43,421 bases of DNA, from positions 1 through 43,421 of the forward strand of contig JAFUCE010000154.1 of assembly GCA_017459805.1 (NCBI GenBank), given 5' to 3'. Positions 18,644 to 30,078 of the stretch are shown in pieces. Source of the DNA: Eggerthellaceae bacterium (GTDB lineage Bacteria; Actinomycetota; Coriobacteriia; Coriobacteriales; Eggerthellaceae). The position numbers were made by a program, and so were the translations under genes. Numbering within the stretch: the first letter of the stretch is position 1; every line of letters starts with the position of its first letter. A model generated the notes under the pieces. It was given only the letters and a program-made list of their open reading frames with translations, searched no databases and was not told where the DNA came from.

Positions 18644-20614
18644 TTACTCTACCACATTTGTCCGAGGCTTGAGCCAATCGAGCCACGCAAGCCCATCTTC
18701 TTCCCTTACGTCCCAAAGGACGTTTCGGGTACCACCAACGCCAGCTGCCGTGAGCGCTGTGATGGTGGTGGTATGAGCGCGTTTCTGGAAGGGGTTCGTG
18801 CGCGTCATCATGTCCTGAATTTTCTGGCGCGGGTAGTACACGGTTTCAGTACCCAAGCCGTCGTTGCAAATGGCTGCGTAACCATGCGTAAGCGCAAAGC
18901 CGCTGCCGCGCTTCCACCAAAGAGTACCGAGGACAATAATGCCTGCTTGAATAGTAAAAAACACATAGGCGAGCACACAGGCGGCATTGACAAAAGAAAG
19001 CGATCGCAGCTCTTCTGCATTAAGAGAGGACGCGATGTTGGGCAGGAACATATTAAAGGCAATCTGCATAACAACAATGATAAGGATTGTCCAGAAGAAG
19101 CCGTTTTGCCAAAGGCAGCGACGCAGTATGCCCCGACGCAGCGCCACAGGGGGCAGCCCCTTGAAGTCGGATGATTTCGGACGGTCGGAAAATTCGGGCA
19201 GCAAGCCAGCCATCAAGCTGTCGACCTGGTCAATCTTGAGGAAGGGGTGAACAACTAAACCGCCTGAGTTAAGCGATGCCTGGGTGTTTTGGTCTTCCCC
19301 ACCACCCGCGCGAATGCGGCCCAGCGACACTTCGCAATAGCCGAGCATACGACGAATAATCGACTGTTTAATGACCACCGACTGTATACGGTTAATATCG
19401 ATGCCGCTAAAGTCGCGTTGCAGGATGCCGCGCTCGACTTCAATGCGGCTTCCTCGCCTGCGCACGCTAAAGGAACCATAGGAAAGCGCCGTCGTTGCCA
19501 CCATGACAAAACAAATGAACGCGAACCATAGCACGATAAAGGGAACACCTAGGGCTGCCAGCGGTAACACTTCGCGCGCAAAGAGGGCAACGGTCACCAA
19601 ACCCGCCACAATAAGAATGACCATGCTTGCAAGCATGCCCGACATTCCGCTTGTTGAAATGCTGGCCAGAAGCAATTCTTTGTTGTCCATGCGGCGCTCG
19701 AAGGAAACAGGCTCCATACCCACGATGTTTTCACCATAAAGCCCGCGGAATTGTTCGGCGCCAAGTTCCTGAGCCGTTGTGTCGAGTATGTTGGCTTGAC
19801 CTGCGCCCGCCCCTTGCTGCCCCGCCATGGCAGCGGCACTCGACCCCGCAAGCGGCACAGCAGCACCACCTGCCCCACCCGCAAGTGGGACGGCAACCCC
19901 GCCTTCGCCCACAACTGAGGCAGGAGAAGCTTGCAAGCCAAGACTTAGGGCCTTGCGTACAAACAGTTCTTTGCGGATTGCTTCGCCAACGCCGAGTTTG
20001 ACATAGGGCACTTTAATGGCCTTGTTCGAAGCGCCACCAGCCGTGTCAATTTCAACGGTGCACACTCCAGCAATGCGCTGCACAAGCGACTGTTTGTGGT
20101 TCACGCTTTGCACGCGCGCATAGGGAACATGAACACGCCGCTTGGTAATAATGCCTGAATAAAGGCTGAATTCTGTTTCATCAAAAACAAAGCTGAGGTT
20201 TTTGTACGACAGAGCGGTAACGCCAACAAATATGCCGTAGAGCAACACAAAGCCCAACAACACAAAAAGGAGTACGAGCAAAATTGGGAAACCAGTTTCG
20301 CGCGCATACATGATGCCCGTGATGATGTCATTGATGTTTGAAATGAGCGAAATAACAATGACAGCACCAATGCCCAAGAGCGGGCTCAGCCAGATATAGC
20401 TATGGTGCACCTTGTTGTGCTGCCCCGTTGGGAAGGCAAGCGTGCCGAGCGGCATTTGCTGCGGCGCGGGTGCCTGCAGCGGCGCGGGTGCCTGCTGGGG
20501 TGCGTACGGCTGTTGGGATACAGGCACCTGTTCAGCTACAGGTGCGGGGCCTGGTATTCCAGGCTGCATATTGGGCGCCGATTGCCCCGGTTGTGAAATG
20601 GGAGGCTCGGGCAT
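18644..20614 (-). CDS. YdbT-like membrane protein with repeated bacterial PH (bPH2) domains
   Basis: A 656-aa membrane protein. A Pro/Gln/Ala-rich cytoplasmic start (1-60) contains near-repeats of QAPAPQ. Then come paired hydrophobic segments and bPH2 domains (strands such as VHVPYARVQSVNHKQ and GIDINRIQSVVIKQS, and a third YYPRQKIQDMMTRTNPF), giving three PH units separated by TM pairs. Between the first and second lies a Gly/Ala-rich linker with tandem GGVAVPLAG/GGAAVPLAG. The YdbS-YdbT pair is conserved, with unknown function at the membrane. The ATG follows the YdbS stop directly (TAGATG). Confidence 0.88.
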   Translation of the reverse strand: MPEPPISQPGQSAPNMQPGIPGPAPVAEQVPVSQQPYAPQQAPAPLQAPAPQQMPLGTLAFPTGQHNKVHHSYIWLSPLLGIGAVIVISLISNINDIITGIMYARETGFPILLVLLFVLLGFVLLYGIFVGVTALSYKNLSFVFDETEFSLYSGIITKRRVHVPYARVQSVNHKQSLVQRIAGVCTVEIDTAGGASNKAIKVPYVKLGVGEAIRKELFVRKALSLGLQASPASVVGEGGVAVPLAGGAGGAAVPLAGSSAAAMAGQQGAGAGQANILDTTAQELGAEQFRGLYGENIVGMEPVSFERRMDNKELLLASISTSGMSGMLASMVILIVAGLVTVALFAREVLPLAALGVPFIVLWFAFICFVMVATTALSYGSFSVRRRGSRIEVERGILQRDFSGIDINRIQSVVIKQSIIRRMLGYCEVSLGRIRAGGGEDQNTQASLNSGGLVVHPFLKIDQVDSLMAGLLPEFSDRPKSSDFKGLPPVALRRGILRRCLWQNGFFWTILIIVVMQIAFNMFLPNIASSLNAEELRSLSFVNAACVLAYVFFTIQAGIIVLGTLWWKRGSGFALTHGYAAICNDGLGTETVYYPRQKIQDMMTRTNPFQKRAHTTTITALTAAGVGGTRNVLWDVREEDGLAWLDWLKPRTNVVE

Positions 20615-21106
20615 CTAGACATCCTCACGCGCAATACGGGCGAGCTCGGCCGCACGGTCGCGCAGCTCTTCGGCGATTGCCGCGTCAAGCCCAGGGATTT
20701 CGTGTTCATGCGCCGCCGTGGAAACCGTCACGCTTGCAAGACCAAACATGCGCAAAATGGGGCCCTGCCGCGTATCGGTATTCTGAACGCGAATAAAAGG
20801 AATGATGTAGCGCTTGCGCCAGAAAATCCCCTTGGCAATATCGAGGTATTCAGGTGTTATTTCGTAGCGCCAGCGGGCATAGCGGATGGGAGGAAGCACC
20901 ACCAACCAAATGACGAGCAAAACAACCCACAGCACAAGTAAAACAATGAGCAACAAGCGGCCAATGCCAAGGCTTTCGGGGAAAAAGGTCATAACGAAAG
21001 CACAGGCAATTAAGGGAAGCATCACAATGCAAATCCAAATAGCATCGTTAAAGCGCCACACGCTTTTCACGCGAGGGTCAAGCTGGTTAGCTGGCAAAGG
21101 TTTCAT
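20615..21106 (-). CDS. YdbS-like bacterial PH domain membrane protein
   Basis: A 163-aa protein with two hydrophobic segments (about 24-43 and 49-72) and one bPH2 domain (about 75-150). The domain contains RYEITPEYLDI and RYIIPFIRVQNTDTRQGPI, the hallmark strand-turn of YdbS. Partner of the downstream YdbT-like protein, with no gap between the genes. It is the first gene of the envelope block. The Shine-Dalgarno site is weak (GAGAAAG). Confidence 0.88.
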   Translation of the reverse strand: MKPLPANQLDPRVKSVWRFNDAIWICIVMLPLIACAFVMTFFPESLGIGRLLLIVLLVLWVVLLVIWLVVLPPIRYARWRYEITPEYLDIAKGIFWRKRYIIPFIRVQNTDTRQGPILRMFGLASVTVSTAAHEHEIPGLDAAIAEELRDRAAELARIAREDV

Positions 21107-21192
21107 GGATGGTCTTTCTCGTCTTAATTCCTTAACTTCAAATATGGTAGCAAGCCCCCTGTGTGGCCCTACAGCAGAAATGGCTTTGTTGC

Positions 21193-21867
21193 CTATTCGT
21201 TGATGAGCCCATGAAGTTTACTTTTGTCGGCAACTTCAATATAGCCACGCGAAAGAGTGACGATTCCCTTGTCGGCAAAAGTTTTGAGCATGCGCGAAAC
21301 AGCTTCGCGCGCACTCCCAATATGGCGGGCAATTTCGTCATGGGTGAGCTTGAGTTTGTCGCCTTTTTGACGGGCAACCTCATCAAGCAAAAACACTGCT
21401 AGGCGCCCATCAAGCCCCATGAAAAGCTGTTGCTGCATGACCCACATAACGTCACTGAAGCGGTCAGCGCTTTGCTTGTAGGTATAGGCTTCCATGGAAA
21501 CATTTTCTTCAAGAATCCGAGCGTACACGTCAGGATCAATAACTAAAAGCACGGTATCTTTTTCGGCATCCATAAAAAGGTCGAAGGTTATCATTTTCAG
21601 GATGCAGGTTGCCGCCAAGACACAGGTCTCGTTTTCGTATACGCGGAACAAGGTGCATTCGCGTCCCGATGCAGAAAGCATGTAGGCACGTAATTCGCCT
21701 TCAAGCACCAAGAGCACGCCAATACAGTCATTTTCACCACTGTGAACATGATCTCCTGCACTAAACTGCGCTGGCCGCGTGCCTGCTATAAGCGCATTTT
21801 GCTGCTGCTTCGTCAGCGTTTCCCAAAATGGGAAGAACTGCTTCAGGTATCCCTCGACTTCTGCCAT
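21193..21867 (-). CDS. Crp/Fnr-family transcription regulator
   Basis: A 224-aa regulator with an N-terminal cyclic-nucleotide-binding-type beta-barrel (about 12-125), a long helix, and a C-terminal winged helix (about 150-220) with recognition segment HDEIARHIGSAREAVSRML. Cysteines at 48, 71, 82 and 88 include a close CVLAATC pair in the barrel, where thiol- or persulfide-sensing members of this family carry reactive cysteines. No FNR-type N-terminal iron-sulfur cysteine cluster is present. The start at 21867 is chosen for AGGAGT six bases upstream. It lies directly after the CoA-disulfide reductase gene. Confidence 0.93.
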   Translation of the reverse strand: MAEVEGYLKQFFPFWETLTKQQQNALIAGTRPAQFSAGDHVHSGENDCIGVLLVLEGELRAYMLSASGRECTLFRVYENETCVLAATCILKMITFDLFMDAEKDTVLLVIDPDVYARILEENVSMEAYTYKQSADRFSDVMWVMQQQLFMGLDGRLAVFLLDEVARQKGDKLKLTHDEIARHIGSAREAVSRMLKTFADKGIVTLSRGYIEVADKSKLHGLINE

Positions 21868-21892
21868 GGGTACTCCTATCAAAACGGCATCT

Positions 21893-21898
21893 ATTATA
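21893..21898 (-). promoter_or_regulatory. -10 box for the Crp/Fnr gene, overlapping the previous stop codon
   Basis: TATAAT on the minus strand overlaps the TAA of the CoA-disulfide reductase gene (21894-21896) and lies 25 bases before the regulator's ATG. The regulator may thus be made independently as well as by read-through. No clear -35 box. Confidence 0.45.
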
Positions 21899-23558
21899 TC
21901 GGCTGAGATGCTTCCTGGTCGGCTTCCCATGCAGCATAGAACGCATGCCCGCCTGAAATGTTTACGCAATCAAAACCGTGTTGCTTCAGGATGCGACAAG
22001 CCACATAACTGCGCACGCCGGTCTGACAATAAAGATAGAGACGTTTGTCGCGCGGCAGTTCGTCCAGATGCTCGCGCAGCTTGTCGAGCTCGAAGAAAGC
22101 TGCTCCTGGAGCTGACCCGCGCTTTTCGATTTCCCAGGGCTCGCGCGCATCAATGAGCACAGTGTCTTCAGGCCGATTGAGCGCTTCTTCCCAGGACACC
22201 TGCTCCACCAAACCGTCGAGCAAATTGCAAATCGCAAAGCCCGCCATGTTCACCGGGTCCTTCGCTGAAGAATAGGGCGGCGCATAACACAGATCCAGTT
22301 CGGACAGGTCACGTGCTGTCATGTGCCCATGTATGGCAGTCGCAATAACATCGATGCGCTTTTCGGCACCTTCACCGCTAACTGCCTGGCCCCCCAGAAT
22401 GCGCCCGGTCTCCGGGTCGAAAAGGACCTTCATGCGCACGGGGCTTGAGTCAGGATAATAGGTCGCATGGGACGAGGGACTCAGGCGCAAGCAGTCATAA
22501 GCGACGCCGGCGTTCTTGGCCGATGTTTCGTTGAGACCCGTTGCAGCAACCGTAAGGTCAAAAACTTTGAGTACCGAAGAACCGAGCGAACCCGTGAAAC
22601 GAGCTTGCTTGCCAGCAATATTGTCAGCCGCAATACGCCCTTGCTTGTTTGCGGGCCCAGCAAGCGGAATGTGCGCTTCTTCGGACGTAACGAAGTTCTT
22701 TACCTGCACGGCGTCACCGACCGCATAAATGGCGGGGTCGGACGTGCACATGTACTCGTCCACCACAATGGCGCCCTTTACACCCAGGTCAAGACCCGCA
22801 TCTGCCGCAAGAGTGCTTTCGGGCACCACACCAATGGACATAATCACCATGTCAAAAGTACGCTCGCCTACATTACTTTGCACCGTAAGAGCTTCGCCTT
22901 CGTCAATCAGACCTTCAACACTGGCGCCCAGGTAAAGATCAACCCCGTGTTCGCGCATGTGGTTATGCACGAAGCAGGCCATGTCGTCGTCGAGGATGGG
23001 TAGCACATGCTTCGGGCGTTGGTAAAGAGCCACCTGCAAACCCCAGTCCACCAAATTGTCGGCCATCTCTACCCCAATAAACCCGCCACCAATAACTGCG
23101 GCTGTCTTGGGACGAGCACTACGCACGAAGTCAGCAATGGCGTAGGTGTCTTCAACGGTACGCAAGGTGAAGAGGCGATCGGCCTCTACCCCAGCAATGT
23201 CGGGCAGGACTGCCTTGGCCCCAGGGGACAAAATAAGGTAGTCATAGCTTTCGGTATATTCTTCGCCTGTTTCCAAATTGCGAACGCTTACTTGCTTTGC
23301 AGCGCGGTCAATGGAAGTTGCCTCCGTGGCCACACGCACATCAATATCGAAGCGACTATGCAGGCTTTCGGGAGTATGCAGGGTCAGCTTTGCGCGGTCT
23401 TCAATCGTGCCACCAATGTAATAGGGCAAGCCACAGTTTGCGTAAGACACATAGCCCGAACGTTCAAGCAAAATGATTTCAGCATTTTCATCCATGCGGC
23501 GCAAACGTGCTGCCGCTGAAGCGCCGCCCGCTACACCACCAACGATAACAACCTTCAT
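21894..23558 (-). CDS. CoA-disulfide reductase fused to rhodanese (CoADR-RHD)
   Basis: A 554-aa flavoprotein. The N-terminal FAD and NAD(P)H domains (about 1-320) open with VVIVGGVAGGASAAARLRR, followed by the single active Cys42 in YANCGLPYYIGG and the second FAD motif in IYAVGDAV. Then comes a pyridine nucleotide-disulfide dimerisation domain (about 325-445). The C-terminal rhodanese domain (about 465-550) carries Cys511 in YCQTGVRSYV. Such fusions reduce CoA disulfide, CoA persulfide or polysulfide. The start MKVV at 23558 is preferred over the ATG two codons upstream because AAAAGGA then has a six-base spacing. Confidence 0.93.
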   Translation of the reverse strand: MKVVIVGGVAGGASAAARLRRMDENAEIILLERSGYVSYANCGLPYYIGGTIEDRAKLTLHTPESLHSRFDIDVRVATEATSIDRAAKQVSVRNLETGEEYTESYDYLILSPGAKAVLPDIAGVEADRLFTLRTVEDTYAIADFVRSARPKTAAVIGGGFIGVEMADNLVDWGLQVALYQRPKHVLPILDDDMACFVHNHMREHGVDLYLGASVEGLIDEGEALTVQSNVGERTFDMVIMSIGVVPESTLAADAGLDLGVKGAIVVDEYMCTSDPAIYAVGDAVQVKNFVTSEEAHIPLAGPANKQGRIAADNIAGKQARFTGSLGSSVLKVFDLTVAATGLNETSAKNAGVAYDCLRLSPSSHATYYPDSSPVRMKVLFDPETGRILGGQAVSGEGAEKRIDVIATAIHGHMTARDLSELDLCYAPPYSSAKDPVNMAGFAICNLLDGLVEQVSWEEALNRPEDTVLIDAREPWEIEKRGSAPGAAFFELDKLREHLDELPRDKRLYLYCQTGVRSYVACRILKQHGFDCVNISGGHAFYAAWEADQEASQPI

Positions 23559-23735
23559 ATCCATTCCTTTTCGCCCTTACGTTGTTTTCAATCCAAAGCA
23601 ATGCGCGTCCTAAAGTGAACAATTCCAGACGCACTTGAAGCCCCCCTTGCTTCTGCAGGTCTATTGTAACGCGCCAAACACAAAAATCCCCGAAGGGCTT
23701 TTATGGAAAAGTTTATTTATCCCTGCTCTTAACAC

Positions 23736-23757
23736 AAAAACCTCCAAAGAGGTTTTT
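23736..23757. terminator. Bidirectional terminator hairpin
   Basis: AAAAACCTC-CAAA-GAGGTTTTT is a perfect 9-bp stem with T tracts in both directions. It lies 80 bases past the stop of the minus-strand rhodanese gene and separates it from the CoA-disulfide reductase gene. A second, imperfect hairpin (AAAATCCC / GGGCTTTT, about 23684-23702) lies just beyond. The remainder of 23559-23837 holds nothing else I can name. Confidence 0.85.
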
Positions 23758-23837
23758 GCAGAGGAGGATTGCCTAAAGCAAAGGGACTATATTTAAAGCA
23801 CAAGGCGGCAAAGCGCAACCACAGCTTGTATACGCGC

Positions 23838-24164
23838 CTACTTTCCAGCTACAACAGCGCCACGGTAAAAACCAATACCGCCAATATTAGTTACATCGGT
23901 ATAACCCATGGACTTCAAAGCATTGGCTGCGCTGCCGCTACGGGAACCACTTGCACAATAGATATAAATGGTTGCATCTTTGTCGCGGAGCTTTTTACTT
24001 GCTCGATGGAAGCTGTTCAAGGGAATATTGATAGCGCCCTCTATGTGGCCGTTTGCGAATTCGCCTTCGGAACGCACATCAACCAGCGTTGCTCCGTTTT
24101 CTTTTGCCTGTTCAACGTACTCACTAAAATTACTACCACCAAAAAGCATGTCGAAAAAACCCAT
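23838..24164 (-). CDS. Single-domain rhodanese
   Basis: A 108-aa sulfurtransferase-fold protein with LVDVRSEGEFANGHIEGA and the active-site loop YCASGSRSG with Cys70, both standard for PspE/GlpE-type rhodaneses. It has no signal peptide, so it is cytoplasmic and probably handles persulfide sulfur. AAAGGAAG lies seven bases before the ATG. It is adjacent to the CoA-disulfide reductase gene with its own terminator at 23736. Confidence 0.93.
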   Translation of the reverse strand: MGFFDMLFGGSNFSEYVEQAKENGATLVDVRSEGEFANGHIEGAINIPLNSFHRASKKLRDKDATIYIYCASGSRSGSAANALKSMGYTDVTNIGGIGFYRGAVVAGK

Positions 24165-24303
24165 AAATGCTTCCTTTCTTTATTTGAACAATGCCATAGT
24201 AGCGGTGCCTGCATTCGCAAACTGTAACCAAATCACGCAAGGAAAGTAGAACGGCATAAACTGCTTCTCATACATGGGCGCTCTCGCCATCATGTGCGTG
24301 CGC

Positions 24304-24309
24304 TACAAT
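24304..24309 (+). promoter_or_regulatory. -10 box giving a probable leaderless thpR transcript
   Basis: GCTACAAT, six bases, then ATG at 24316. The eight-base core and the spacing are identical to the promoter at 2340-2353. No Shine-Dalgarno site precedes the start. Confidence 0.6.
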
Positions 24310-24315
24310 GCATGT

Positions 24316-24840
24316 ATGCGCTTATTTATTGCAACAGAACTACCCCAGGAAATGCTTGATGCTTTGGCAGAAACGCAGGCCGAACTGCGCGCATGCGTGT
24401 CGGGGCGCTATGTGGGTGCCGACTCCTTCCACGTTACCCTCGCCTTTTTGGGTGAAGTCGAAGCTTGGCGCGTGAACGAGCTCGCTGACATACTTGATGA
24501 CGCCTGCTCTGGACATGCCGCCTTCGAAAGCTGCCTTGGTGAACTAGGAAATTTTGGCAGGGCAAGCAAAGCAACTTTGTGGCAAGGCTTTACCGACAAA
24601 AAACCCTTTGCCGAACTTGCGCAAAGTGTTCGCCGCGAACTCGCGCATGCAGGCTTTGACTTTGACGACAAAGGCTTTCTGCCCCACATCACGCTTATGC
24701 GCAAGCTTGACTTAAGCAGCGGAGTATTGCCCATGCCGCATGTGGCACGCGGCACTATCGACACCGTCAGCCTTTTTGAGTCCGACCTTTCGGGCGATTA
24801 CCCCGCCTATACCGCCCTCCATCGCACGTTCCTAGCTTGA
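24316..24840 (+). CDS. thpR: RNA 2',3'-cyclic phosphodiesterase (LigT/ThpR family)
   Basis: A 174-aa 2H phosphoesterase that hydrolyses RNA 2',3'-cyclic phosphates to 2'-phosphomonoesters and can ligate 2'-5' ends in vitro. Both catalytic HxTx motifs are visible: His39-Val-Thr41-Leu in FHVTLAFLG and His124-Ile-Thr126-Leu in PHITLMRK. The start MRLFIATELP is the family N-terminus. An ATG fourteen codons upstream is rejected because it lies before the -10 box. Single plus-strand gene with no partner. Confidence 0.92.
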   Translation: MRLFIATELPQEMLDALAETQAELRACVSGRYVGADSFHVTLAFLGEVEAWRVNELADILDDACSGHAAFESCLGELGNFGRASKATLWQGFTDKKPFAELAQSVRRELAHAGFDFDDKGFLPHITLMRKLDLSSGVLPMPHVARGTIDTVSLFESDLSGDYPAYTALHRTFLA

Positions 24841-26037: not shown

Positions 26038-27126
26038 TTAGCGGTAGTAGCGATAATAGGCAGCGCACGAGCCTTCAGATGAAACCATACAGGGCCCAAT
26101 GGGGTTTTCCGGCGTGCAGACCTTGTCAAACAAAGGGCATTCATGTGGCGTAATGGAGCCGCGAAGCACGTCGCCGCATCGACACGACGCGTGTTCTTGC
26201 GTTGGTTCAACCTCGGGGTGAAAACGCTCGACAGCATCAAAGGATGCAAATGCGTCGCGCATCTTATAACCGCTTCCGGGAATTTCGCCAAGTCCGCGCC
26301 ATGTTGCCGGGCAGAGCTCAAAGACTTCATCGATAATGGCCCGTGCCGCAGGATTGCCTTCCTCCATCACACCGCGCGCGTAAGCAATCTCGATTTCAGC
26401 GCGCCCATCATGCAGCTGGCGCATGAGCATGGCGATACCCTGCAAAATGTCAACGGGCTCAAAGCCGGTAATAACACCAGGAATGCCATATTGTTCTGCA
26501 AGGAAACGGTAGGGTTCGGGCCCGATAATCGTACTGACATGACCAGGCAAGATAAGCGCGTCCACCTTAAGCTGCGGGTCAGCCACAATAGCTTCAAGCG
26601 CACCAGGCATATTTTTGTGGGCGACAAAGACGCTGAAGTTTGATAGACCCAAGGACGCGGCGCGCTTAATTGATGCGGCAACCACTGGTGTTGTGGTTTC
26701 AAAACCAACGCCCACAAACACCACCTGGCGGTCGGGGTTATTCTGCGCAAAACTAATGGCATCAAGCGGCGAATAAACCACTTCGATAGCGTGCCCCGCC
26801 GCCTTTTCCGCAAGCAAACTAGACGTAGAACCAGGCACACGCATCATGTCCCCGAAGGTGGTAATGCTCACTTCGGGAATACGCGCGAGCGCAATAACGG
26901 TGTCGATGTCGCGGTTGGCTGTCACGCACACTGGACAGCCTGGCCCCGAAAGCAAACGCGTACCTTCGGGCATGAGTGATCGAATGCCAAAACGCCCAAT
27001 GGCTTGCGTATGGGTGCCGCACACTTCCATAAGATTGGCGGACTCTGGGGCAAGTTTCTGGATAGACTCTACTAAGCCTCGCGCAATCGTAGGATCTTTG
27101 AATACGTCAAGGTCTAAATCTCGCAT
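26038..27126 (-). CDS. hypD: Hydrogenase maturation protein HypD
   Basis: A 362-aa iron-sulfur protein. With HypC it carries and builds the Fe(CN)2CO group of [NiFe]-hydrogenases. Conserved segments include LMEVCGTHT near residue 38, GPGCPVCVT, GFETTTPVVAA, LPGHVSTIIGP and a cysteine-rich C-terminus (CRCGDVLRG..ECPLFDKVC) that binds a [4Fe-4S] cluster. The start overlaps the end of hypC by 13 bases, so the two are translationally coupled. hypE, hypA and hypB are not in the window. Confidence 0.96.
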   Translation of the reverse strand: MRDLDLDVFKDPTIARGLVESIQKLAPESANLMEVCGTHTQAIGRFGIRSLMPEGTRLLSGPGCPVCVTANRDIDTVIALARIPEVSITTFGDMMRVPGSTSSLLAEKAAGHAIEVVYSPLDAISFAQNNPDRQVVFVGVGFETTTPVVAASIKRAASLGLSNFSVFVAHKNMPGALEAIVADPQLKVDALILPGHVSTIIGPEPYRFLAEQYGIPGVITGFEPVDILQGIAMLMRQLHDGRAEIEIAYARGVMEEGNPAARAIIDEVFELCPATWRGLGEIPGSGYKMRDAFASFDAVERFHPEVEPTQEHASCRCGDVLRGSITPHECPLFDKVCTPENPIGPCMVSSEGSCAAYYRYYR

Positions 27127-27341
27127 AGCTCAGGGAACTCTTTAATGATGTCGATGGTCTCTTGCGCAAACTGCTGGTCAACCACTTCGATGGCAAAACC
27201 AGCATGCACAAGTACGTAGTCTCCTACCCCTGCTTGGGGTACCAGGTCAAGCGAAGCCGAGCGCTGCGCGCCCAAAATATCCACCGTGGCAATGTTGTTG
27301 TCGCTAATCTCGGTAATCTTCGCGGGAATTGCTAAACACAT
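27114..27341 (-). CDS. hypC: Hydrogenase maturation chaperone HypC
   Basis: A 75-aa HypC/HupF family protein starting MCLAIPAKI. Cys2 is the conserved residue that, after Met removal, holds the Fe(CN)2CO moiety with HypD. The fold core VDILGAQRSASLDLVP and VGDYVLVHAGFAIEVVD are typical. The start at 27341 is fixed by AAAGGAGAG just upstream. The longer frame to 27473 is spurious. Length is normal. Confidence 0.96.
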   Translation of the reverse strand: MCLAIPAKITEISDNNIATVDILGAQRSASLDLVPQAGVGDYVLVHAGFAIEVVDQQFAQETIDIIKEFPELCEI

Positions 27342-27366
27342 AGGCTCTCCTTTTTTTAACCTGGCA

Positions 27367-27372
27367 ATAATA
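27367..27372 (-). promoter_or_regulatory. Possible -10 box upstream of hypC
   Basis: TATTAT on the minus strand lies 25 bases before the hypC ATG, in the 97-bp gap after hypF. It would give a short leader carrying the AAAGGAG site. No clear -35 box is seen, and read-through from hypF is also possible. Confidence 0.35.
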
Positions 27373-27438
27373 CCACGGCTACGCAAGGGAAGGCATCGTC
27401 CGCCTCCGCCAACGGTAGGAGCACATGTGCCATCCACA

Positions 27439-30078
27439 TTAGGACTTGTGGCTCGCCACGATAGCTTGCCCAAAAGAAATACTGCCGTCGTTGGGAGGTA
27501 AATCCTTATTCATAACAACGGTGAAGCCATCATTGGCAAGGGCGCGCACCGCTTGTTCAATAAGGTAGCGATTCATGAATACACCCCCCGCCAGAACAGC
27601 CGTATTGATGTCGAAGGCAGAGCGAGCAATGTGGGCAAGCTGAACGATGACCTGCACAAAGGCGTCGTGGAACTTGCGTGCGATTTCAGGAACCGCAAGA
27701 CCTGCTTCCACATCGTCAAGCAGGGCGCGGAAAAGAGCTTCGGCGTCCAGTAAAACGACCGAGGTATCAAGTGCGGTACTCTGCTCAGTTGCCGTGTTCT
27801 TAATAATGCTTATTTCGTACGCGTCCGACAGACTGGGTTCGGGCACGCTTGCCGCAGAACCGGGGGTGCTGTCGGTTTGCCCTAAACTATCCTGGGTCAT
27901 GCACGCCTCTAAAAGAATTGCCGCCTCGCCTTCGTAGGTGGGCGCCGTGCATACCTCCAAAATGGCACTGGCTGCATCAAAGAGGCGTCCCACCGAAGAA
28001 GTATAGGGCGTGTTAATACCCTGCTCTATCATCTGCTCGCAAAGGCTGGCTTCACTTCCTAAGGCCTCAATAAGGCGTGCCGCCGCAGGATGTTCAAGCA
28101 AATCAAAAGCCCACAGCGCACCATAGGCACAGCGCAAGGGATGCTTTATGGCCGCCGCACCACCAGGCAGGGGGAAGTAGGCGAAGTTCGCGAAACGTTC
28201 ATAGCTTGCAAGGTTTGACAGCAGCACTTCCCCGCCCCAAATGGCGCCGTCGGGTCCTGCCCCTGTACCATCAAAAGCAAAACCAATCGCGGGCCCTTCA
28301 AGCCCGTGTTCTGCCATGGCCGAAGCGATATGGGCATGATGATGCTGCACAAGCGTGACAGGCAGGCTTTGGCTGTGAGCCCACTTGCTTGTGAGGTATT
28401 CAGGATGCATATCGCAGGCCACGCGCTCAGGCGCAAGTTCAAAAAGACGCTCGTAGCTTGCTTTTGATTCGAGCCAGGCGTCAAAGGTTTCTGCGTTTTC
28501 CATGTCGCCAATGTGCTGCGAAACAAAGGCGCGATTTTCGTCCAACAAACAGAAGGTGTTCTTCTGTTCAGGCCCTGTCGCCATAATGCATGCCTTTGTT
28601 TGAGAAGTCGATTGCGGTGCCAACTCAGCGGCGGCACCTTCTGCAGCTTGCGCCGTAACTGCTATAGGCAGGGGGGCATAGCCGCGTGCGCGACGAATGA
28701 CCTGGATGGAACTTTCGCCGTCGCCAAAATTAAGAATGCGGACCACCGAATCATCGTAGCGTGCGCGGATAGCACGGTTGTTTCCCACGAGCACGTCGGC
28801 AATACCAGCAAGGGCGGTGCAAGCCTCTTTATCGTCAATCTGAATAGGTTCATCATGCACGTTGCCCGAAGTAAATACGAGCATGTTCTTGCCTGTTGCC
28901 TGCTCGAAATCATGCAAAAGTAAATGCTGCAGGGGTGTGGCAGGCAACATGACACCCAGCTCGGGTAGTTTGTCGGCAAGACCTGTAGCAAATCTGGCAC
29001 CGGCACGTTTCTTCAAAAGCACGATAGGCCGCGCAGGCGAATTCAGCAGCGCTTCTTCTTCGGCGCTTAGCGCACAATAAGTGCGCGCCGCATCAGCGTC
29101 TGGCACCATGACCGCGAAGGCTTTACCCTCGCGCCGTTTCCGTTTCCGCAGTTCAGAGAGGGTTGCAGCATTGGATGCATCGCACACCAGGTGAAAGCCA
29201 CCCAATCCCTTCACGGCAACAATCTTGCCTGCTGCCAGCATGTCCACGGTGCGGGCAATAATCGCATCCGACTCTTCCCTGCCCCGCGCCCAGAAGAAGC
29301 TACTGGTTATCGAAGAGGTGGTGGAGGCTAATTCAACGACATGAAAGCCATTGGTTGTCGAAGAGTCAGCGAGGGTTTTGCTGGTGCCCGAGATGGTTTC
29401 GTTCACAGGGGCGAAGCCTACTTCGGTAGGTGAGCCGCTGGGAACGGAAGCAGATGGGGTGCCAGCGGAAGCCGCAGCATCGACTTGTTCGCTGTTCGTT
29501 AGAACAGCGAAACAAAGAGAAGGCCCACAAGTAAAGCAAGCATCGGGTTGCGCATGAAAGCGGCGATTGCTAGGGTCGGCATATTCGGCCGCACACGCGT
29601 CGCACATTTCAAACGTGCCCATGGATGTCTTTGCGCGGTCGTAAGGAAGCCCATCGATAATCGTAAAGCGTGGACCACAGTTTGTGCAGTTTATAAAGGG
29701 GTAACGATACCGGCGGTCCGTCGGGTCAAAGAGTTCGCGAACACAGTCGTCACAGGTAGCCAAATCAGGCGACACGAGCGTCGTTTGCTCCACCGCCTCT
29801 GCGTCAGAAAAGCGAATCTCGAAGAAATCAAAACCTTCGAGCGGAACTTCTTTCATGTCGATGCGCCTAATCTGTGCAGCAGCGGGCGCTTCATCGTGGA
29901 TGGCCATCACAAATTCATCAACCAGGCGCTCTTCGCCTTCAGCATGAATATGCACGCCGTCAATAGCATTAAGCACCCAGCCGTTTACCAAATGGCGCTT
30001 CGCAAGCCTATAGACAAAGGGTCGAAAACCGACCCCCTGCACGATACCTGTCACATGTATATCAAGAGCGTTTAGCAT
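27439..30078 (-). CDS. hypF: Carbamoyltransferase HypF
   Basis: An 879-aa enzyme that activates carbamoyl phosphate and passes the carbamoyl group to HypE for cyanide ligand synthesis. Domains in order: acylphosphatase (1-90, VQGVGFRPFVYRLA); two zinc fingers with Cys109/112/131/134 and Cys159/162/181/184; YrdC-like (about 275-460, KGLGGFHLVCDA); Kae1-like (about 480-875, with VQHHHAHIASAMAEH and LAGGVFMNRYL). It is longer than the usual 750 aa because of two low-complexity inserts (about 191-270 and 727-778). The start is ATG 30078, six bases after a -10 box and with no Shine-Dalgarno site. Confidence 0.95.
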   Translation of the reverse strand: MLNALDIHVTGIVQGVGFRPFVYRLAKRHLVNGWVLNAIDGVHIHAEGEERLVDEFVMAIHDEAPAAAQIRRIDMKEVPLEGFDFFEIRFSDAEAVEQTTLVSPDLATCDDCVRELFDPTDRRYRYPFINCTNCGPRFTIIDGLPYDRAKTSMGTFEMCDACAAEYADPSNRRFHAQPDACFTCGPSLCFAVLTNSEQVDAAASAGTPSASVPSGSPTEVGFAPVNETISGTSKTLADSSTTNGFHVVELASTTSSITSSFFWARGREESDAIIARTVDMLAAGKIVAVKGLGGFHLVCDASNAATLSELRKRKRREGKAFAVMVPDADAARTYCALSAEEEALLNSPARPIVLLKKRAGARFATGLADKLPELGVMLPATPLQHLLLHDFEQATGKNMLVFTSGNVHDEPIQIDDKEACTALAGIADVLVGNNRAIRARYDDSVVRILNFGDGESSIQVIRRARGYAPLPIAVTAQAAEGAAAELAPQSTSQTKACIMATGPEQKNTFCLLDENRAFVSQHIGDMENAETFDAWLESKASYERLFELAPERVACDMHPEYLTSKWAHSQSLPVTLVQHHHAHIASAMAEHGLEGPAIGFAFDGTGAGPDGAIWGGEVLLSNLASYERFANFAYFPLPGGAAAIKHPLRCAYGALWAFDLLEHPAAARLIEALGSEASLCEQMIEQGINTPYTSSVGRLFDAASAILEVCTAPTYEGEAAILLEACMTQDSLGQTDSTPGSAASVPEPSLSDAYEISIIKNTATEQSTALDTSVVLLDAEALFRALLDDVEAGLAVPEIARKFHDAFVQVIVQLAHIARSAFDINTAVLAGGVFMNRYLIEQAVRALANDGFTVVMNKDLPPNDGSISFGQAIVASHKS

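Follow-up and report, generated by a model that had tools for sequence, protein, structure and literature searches.

In this study, we describe a Crp/Fnr-type regulator with three invariant cysteines, encoded beside two enzymes with rhodanese domains in the genome of an Eggerthellaceae bacterium (assembly GCA_017459805.1; 2.13 Mb in 176 contigs), and we weigh the proposal that it senses reactive sulfur. The locus lies in a stretch of 43,421 nucleotides, positions 1 to 43,421 of contig JAFUCE010000154.1 (hereafter the window). The three genes are on the minus strand and are transcribed in the order single-domain rhodanese (23838-24164; 108 amino acids), CoADR-rhodanese fusion of the coenzyme A (CoA) disulfide/persulfide reductase type (21894-23564; 556 amino acids) and Crp/Fnr regulator (21193-21867; 224 amino acids plus stop, ATG at 21867), with gaps of 273 bases between the first two and 26 bases between the last two. 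An earlier note on this DNA had read the locus as a regulator adjoining a CoADR-rhodanese and a rhodanese, and family searches bear out all three identities. The single-domain rhodanese matches PF00581 (3.2e-20) and keeps its catalytic cysteine, C70, in the active-site loop YCASGSRS. The fusion matches TIGR03385 at 4.1e-150, yet its 500.4 bits lie below the 578.8-bit cut-off; with its Pyr_redox domains, its C-terminal Rhodanese domain (PF00581, 1.1e-10) and both catalytic cysteines, C44 (YANCGLP) and C513 (YCQTGVRS), it belongs with the CoAPR/Npsr-type enzymes. The regulator matches HTH_Crp_2 (1.5e-15; 57.4 bits, above the cut-off), Crp (4.8e-9) and the sequence of Protein Data Bank (PDB) entry 3dv8 (5.9e-54), whereas its match to the cyclic nucleotide (cNMP)-binding family cNMP_binding (20.4 bits) falls below the cut-off of 27.5. 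With a predicted N-terminal cNMP-type beta-roll and a C-terminal HTH_Crp domain, it is assigned to the Crp/Fnr superfamily.

A terminator-like hairpin with a U-run after it, AAAACCTCTTTGGAGGTTTT, lies between the rhodanese and CoADR genes (23736-23757, minus strand); it is absent from the output of the promoter scan described below, and the region 23660-23800 has a fold z of -2.53. Because of this hairpin, a single operon of rhodanese, CoADR and regulator is not favored in the window; at a distance of 26 bases, the regulator may share a transcription unit with CoADR. The promoter that the earlier note had placed over the reductase stop codon, as the regulator's own, was rejected: it amounts to a TATAAT string, a sigma-70 promoter scan of 21100-24350 returned 0 sites, and the string is missing at the same junction in loci L008 and L009. 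These two are the closest relatives among the 80 of 316 relatives that were kept, and the closest relatives of the host genome are labelled Coriobacteriaceae or Eggerthellaceae. In L009 the CoADR gene (L009:6338-7961) is split across two overlapping frames, by a frameshift or an assembly error. Within the host family the regulator is present in 10 of 138 genomes, including all 6 of the host genus.

The cysteines of the regulator are its most conserved mark. When the window protein was aligned with the proteins of the 80 retained loci and with 3DV8, Cys48 (codon 21724-21726, minus strand) and the pair Cys82 and Cys88 (C-x5-C; codons 21604-21624, minus strand) were invariant in 82/82 proteins. 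After the loci of an even draw from a Clostridia-class sample (below) were added, all three residues were found in 149 of 151 relatives, among them relatives of 27-35% identity, the exceptions being L152 (CSC) and L199 (ECR). The CVLAATC pair that the earlier note had singled out, C82 and C88, is thus both present and invariant; Cys71 (codon 21655-21657, minus strand), which it had also named, occurs in 6/82 proteins, only in Coriobacteriia-type relatives, and is not a family feature, while C48 had been overlooked. We therefore assign the regulator, by these residues, to a widespread Crp/Fnr subfamily represented by 3DV8 and marked by C48, C82 and C88.

In an alignment to E. coli CRP, C82 and C88 coincide with the phosphate-binding cassette. 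The CRP residues E72, R82, S83, T127 and S128, which we take to be the contacts to cyclic AMP (cAMP), are all replaced (by A85, F95, D96, V140 and M141), so the protein does not classify as a cAMP-dependent CRP, and the conserved cyclic-nucleotide site that the earlier note had named as fatal to its proposal is not there. The DNA-reading triad R180-E181-R185 of CRP is kept in the alignment. In the predicted model (mean confidence, pLDDT, 89.5) the best fold match is 3DV8 (2.3e-24), and the CRP and FNR folds match as well; C48 and the C82-C88 segment appear in or next to two lower-confidence loops. There is no FNR-type N-terminal cysteine cluster for a [4Fe-4S] center, the first cysteine being C48, inside the beta-roll region, and no histidine is invariant alongside the cysteines (H42 in 80/82, lost in distant relatives; H176 in 77/82).

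The regulator is recurrently linked to enzymes of sulfur and thiol chemistry. In an even draw of 293 genomes from the class to which G138 belongs (the Clostridia-class sample), it was present in 66, in 67 copies, and 66 loci were examined, the copy in G152 being excluded for an internal stop. Within 5 kb of the 66 loci we found CoADR in 30, thioredoxin in 39, TrxB in 5 and rubrerythrin in 4; CoADR, rhodanese, thioredoxin or TrxB lay within that distance in 51/66. CoADR occurs in four relative orientations to the regulator, which indicates that the linkage has been kept through rearrangement, and a more distant member, L198 (36% identity), has regulator, rhodanese and CoADR in a row. In a distant clade, L183-L194 (about 28-35% identity), the three cysteines are kept and the order is mostly thioredoxin-regulator-CoADR. 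In 38 genomes, 30/39 three-cysteine regulators have CoADR no more than 5 kb away, compared with 1/68 of the remaining Crp/Fnr genes there (rows with E > 1.1e-8 dropped beforehand). These genomes were hand-picked for holding both genes, and at least 13 further such genomes, mostly with the genes far apart, were left out, so 30/39 is biased upward; the figure of 30/66 is free of that bias. The sole other Crp gene near CoADR, in G239, is a broken frame with stops (C1:224328-224483), perhaps a decayed second copy; the intact regulator of this genome lies on another contig. The link to sulfur chemistry that the earlier note had seen in one locus is therefore more than chance.

When perfect inverted repeats were counted across 321 upstream regions, a single one stood out, GTGA-N5-TCAC, present in 79 regions compared with 0.7 in shuffles. 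Its consensus reads TGTGAC-N3-GTCACA with GAA after it, and the form GTGAY-N3-RTCAC has 129 sites where 4.07 are expected. Its TGTGA half-site agrees with the kept R180-E181-R185 triad of the regulator. A TATAAT match (at least 5/6) starts 35 bases past the first G of the operator in 64% of 110 sites, the next-best offset reaching 7%, and no TTGACA is seen at the expected -35 place. This spacing puts the operator center at about -41 of the predicted transcription start, the position of a class II activator, and the sites, which have a -10 box but lack a -35 box, show the predicted geometry of class II activation. The operator lies upstream of 55/96 thioredoxin, 12/19 rhodanese, 4/12 desulfoferrodoxin and 5/149 regulator genes. 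The most constant target is a membrane protein with 4Fe-4S-type cysteines (neighbor cluster 1, for example in L060), whose gene has the operator in 23/27 upstream regions.

The operator also tracks the presence of the regulator. The strict operator was found at 104/150 regulator loci, 99 of them with the -10 box; these loci come from two overlapping samples and are not all independent, because one Anaerocolumna locus was counted twice (L015, L202) and some sequences are near-identical. As controls, 20 + 20 CoADR loci were hand-picked from a list: the operator was present at 5/20 loci of genomes in which the regulator is located elsewhere, and at 0/20 loci of genomes without the regulator (0.48 expected). 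Likewise, among the rhodanese genes of the host family, of which 30 of 61 listed matches had loci, the operator with at most 1 mismatch stood at 6/6 loci of genomes with the regulator and at 1/24 without (Fisher 1.2e-5), the single exception, G025, being of the same genus as the regulator-bearing G024. The sole other cNMP-binding-type protein found in the host genome has a different recognition helix.

In the window itself, a putative operator, GTGATTTGGTTAC (24224-24236, minus strand), lies 72 nucleotides before the rhodanese start codon, as an imperfect copy of TGTGAC-N3-GTCACA. A -10 box, TACTAT (24196-24201, minus strand), stands exactly 35 bases past its first G, which predicts a transcription start near 24189, and the position is common to the rhodanese orthologues of L010, L011, L012, L198 and L199. 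The earlier note had expected a palindrome shared by both enzyme genes, through which the regulator would control the two rhodaneses; a site is present upstream of 24164, and none was found upstream of 23564. Control of the single-domain rhodanese thus stands as a prediction, while CoADR, beyond the terminator-like hairpin, is probably not a direct target in this window.

Elsewhere in the host genome the loose palindrome without the -10 box is not enriched (20 sites compared with 26 for the reversed pattern), and only sites with the box were therefore used. The host genome has five of these, where base composition would predict 1.3 and the reversed pattern has 0; across six genomes of the genus there are 23, compared with 1 reversed. 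In all five, a reading frame starts about 72-82 nucleotides on. One is the site before the window rhodanese. Another precedes a type III sulfide:quinone reductase (SQR) of the selenoprotein subtype (L298:1887-3146, on contig C172; NF049943, 560.9 bits against a cut-off of 525), a family found in just 2 of 138 genomes of the host family, and the second SQR-bearing genome keeps the operator at -80. A third lies before a DsbD/CcdA-type membrane protein, for which homology places the start at a codon other than ATG; PF02683 was matched on the orthologue in L301, and the same site is found in two sister genomes. The remaining two precede a small protein weakly like the CC/Se motif family NF041239 (20 bits, below the cut-off of 40) and a 61-amino-acid protein weakly like the rubredoxin domain of rubrerythrin (19.9 bits, below 26.5). 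In sister genomes, sites stand at thioredoxin (L304, L306, L308) and ferritin (L305) genes, the identities in L304 and L305 being confirmed by family search. Some sister-genome sites may be due to chance: that in L302 lies 573 nucleotides from its gene, that in L303 overlaps a longer frame, and that in L309 precedes a family-less protein.

It seems to us evenly balanced that the regulator is a CRP-fold activator without cAMP binding, which would sense reactive (sulfane) sulfur through C48, C82 and C88 and activate a regulon containing rhodanese and SQR. Three observations favor sensing by cysteines: C48, C82 and C88 are invariant, the residues for cyclic-nucleotide contact have been lost, and genes for CoADR-rhodanese, rhodanese and thioredoxin recur nearby. 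Reactive sulfur is the likely signal. The protein combines two of the features that mark sensors of reactive sulfur species (RSS), at least two conserved cysteines and predicted operators at persulfide-metabolizing genes (rhodanese, SQR). In the mechanism that we propose, persulfide or polysulfide would react with C48, C82 and C88, of which C82 and C88 would stand in for the phosphate-binding cassette, and once two of these three cysteines were joined by a di-, tri- or tetrasulfide bridge, the dimer would move to its DNA-binding form. The modified regulator would then bind TGTGAC-N3-GTCACA at -41, where it would replace the -35 box and recruit RNA polymerase. The targets activated in the host would be the window rhodanese, the type III SQR, the CcdA-like membrane thiol carrier and the CC/Se-motif-like and rubredoxin-like proteins, and in relatives the same operator may serve thioredoxin, thioredoxin reductase, rhodanese and CoADR genes. 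The products of these genes (rhodanese, SQR and the CcdA-like carrier, with CoADR, thioredoxin and thioredoxin reductase in relatives) would make, move or reduce persulfide sulfur.

Several observations weigh against this proposal. The strict operator is found at only 5/45 CoADR upstream regions, a figure lowered in part by the many cases in which another gene comes first. It is absent upstream of the window's CoADR (23564), the most persulfide-specific neighbor, and upstream of that of L008 and of L009; L008 and L009 moreover lack the rhodanese. The window site has 3/12 mismatches, and window hits at 3 mismatches are fewer than in shuffles, so that its assignment rests on position and orthology. 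Among 11 loci looked at in the distant clade L183-L194, one (L187) has the strict operator, and no common palindrome was found there. The regulator of L199 (genome G024) has lost C48 and C88 and yet has the operator at its rhodanese. Many targets and neighbors in relatives, such as thioredoxin (39/66 loci), TrxB, desulfoferrodoxin, ferritin and rubrerythrin, fit general thiol or oxygen stress, and the three cysteines could instead hold a metal center. In the literature searched, no biochemistry was found for the three-cysteine family. As an observation in its own right, L199, without two of the cysteines and with the operator, offers a naturally occurring test of the need for the cysteines.

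The main rival keeps the same regulon and the same cysteines and takes the signal to be general thiol oxidation by oxygen, hydrogen peroxide or disulfide stress. A C82-C88 disulfide, or one linked to C48, would be the active form, thioredoxin would reset it, and the sulfur genes would be included through shared repair chemistry. It is the main rival because thioredoxin is the commonest neighbor in Clostridia; TrxB and rubrerythrin near the regulator, the operator before 55/96 thioredoxin and 4/12 desulfoferrodoxin genes, and the ferritin and thioredoxin promoter sites of sister genomes also speak for it. However, 0/5 sites in the host genome precede a thioredoxin or a peroxide-reducing gene, while one precedes SQR and one rhodanese, and CoADR-rhodanese is within 5 kb in 30/66 loci; we regard thiol oxidation as the signal as somewhat unlikely. 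It is less probable again that C48, C82 and C88 hold an iron-sulfur cluster or help to bind heme, in which case the protein would sense oxygen, nitric oxide or redox state in the manner of FNR, CooA, HcpR or PgRsp. Three invariant cysteines and one other residue would suffice as a ligand set for a cluster, one of the nearer PDB sequences is that of CooA (1ft9; 3.6e-6), and PgRsp of Porphyromonas gingivalis, modelled on 3DV8, binds heme (PMC6955866). Against a metal cofactor, the regulator has neither the N-terminal FNR cysteine cluster nor a histidine column invariant with the cysteines, the targets identified encode enzymes of sulfur and thiol chemistry, and the change of Cys76 of PgRsp to alanine left the heme spectrum unchanged (PMC6955866).

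It could also be supposed that the regulator is a mere neighbor, that a different CRP-family protein uses the operator and that the genes lie together by inherited order, with no bearing on regulation. In favor of this, the tie between operator and regulator is a prediction from sequence, and the distant clade is mostly without the operator. Set against these points, the operator tracks the regulator (6/6 compared with 1/24; 104/150 compared with 0/20), the linkage is seen in four orientations, among the further Crp genes in the genomes compared 1/68 is linked, and the half-site fits the kept R-E-R triad, and we consider the mere-neighbor explanation very improbable.

Two proteins with bacterial PH domains (PF03703) are encoded directly downstream of the regulator, at 20615-21106 and 18644-20614 on the minus strand, and the neighbor clusters that match them, 14 and 15, each follow the regulator in 4 loci. 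At 26038-30078, also on the minus strand, frames resembling hypD, hypC and hypF suggest by eye a hydrogenase-maturation set.

To return to the sulfane-sulfur proposal, we suggest tentatively, with slightly less than even confidence, that the family represents a class of CRP-fold sulfane-sulfur sensors of anaerobic Clostridia and Coriobacteriia, in which the cassette would have been rebuilt as a C-x5-C switch together with C48, and which would activate from a new N5 operator. No description of a Crp/Fnr persulfide sensor or of a TGTGAC-N3-GTCACA operator was found in the open-licence PMC papers that were covered, without preprints and with the spelling 'CRP/FNR' possibly missed, and the evidence for novelty is correspondingly weak. 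If the suggestion is true, a family of persulfide sensors would join the CsoR, ArsR, Fis, LysR and MarR types, one with a solved structure, 3DV8, so far unexplained, and it would show how a cyclic-nucleotide pocket can turn into a cysteine switch. Anaerobic gut bacteria live in sulfide, and the persulfide sensors that we found described belong to other protein families, mostly in other bacteria; a CRP-type sensor with an operator, a target list and a PDB structure would make sulfur signalling in these anaerobes directly testable.

Among known systems, E. coli CRP shares with the regulator the overall fold, the TGTGA half-site, R180/E181/R185 and the class II-type position, and differs in its cAMP residues, which are absent here, and in the spacer between TGTGA and TCACA, which is 6 in CRP and 5 here. 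The closest relative of solved structure, 3DV8, a Crp/Fnr protein of Eubacterium rectale, belongs to the same subfamily, has all three cysteines and is the best fold match; no function was found for it in the literature searched, where it is named only as a modelling template. HcpR is likewise a Crp/Fnr protein of anaerobes, with a GTGA half-site in Desulfovibrio, where the sites have the form TTGTGA-N6-TCACAA and the targets are hcp and frdX (PMC545781). The operator here has N5 between GTGA and TCAC, the HcpR of P. gingivalis (9day) is a weak sequence match (0.006), and no hcp-type protein was recognized by eye among neighbor clusters 0-21, so the regulator is not classed as an HcpR. After 3DV8, CooA is one of the nearer relatives in the PDB, and PgRsp, which affects oxidative-stress genes (PMC6955866), was modelled on 3DV8; both bind heme, whereas the three-cysteine family has no invariant histidine.

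The nearest functional parallels lie in other folds. CstR of the CsoR family, in Staphylococcus and Enterococcus, senses RSS by a dithiol and regulates a CoADR-rhodanese and two sulfurtransferases; in Enterococcus, where CstR represses it, that enzyme (CoAPR) reduces CoA persulfide (PMC9405070). CstR is a repressor of another fold, whereas the Crp/Fnr protein here has sites whose geometry predicts activation. SqrR/BigR, in which two cysteines form a tetrasulfide (PMC9774590), is similarly linked to SQR and persulfide handling and differs in being an ArsR-family repressor. In FisR of Cupriavidus pinatubonensis, three conserved cysteines form disulfide and tetrasulfide cross-links (PMC9774590). 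As a three-cysteine, sulfane-sulfur-responsive activator that controls sulfide-oxidation genes, FisR shows that such chemistry can drive activation. It is a Fis-family protein acting at sigma-54 promoters, in contrast to the CRP fold, the class II-type site and the -10 box without a -35 box that we find for the regulator of the window.

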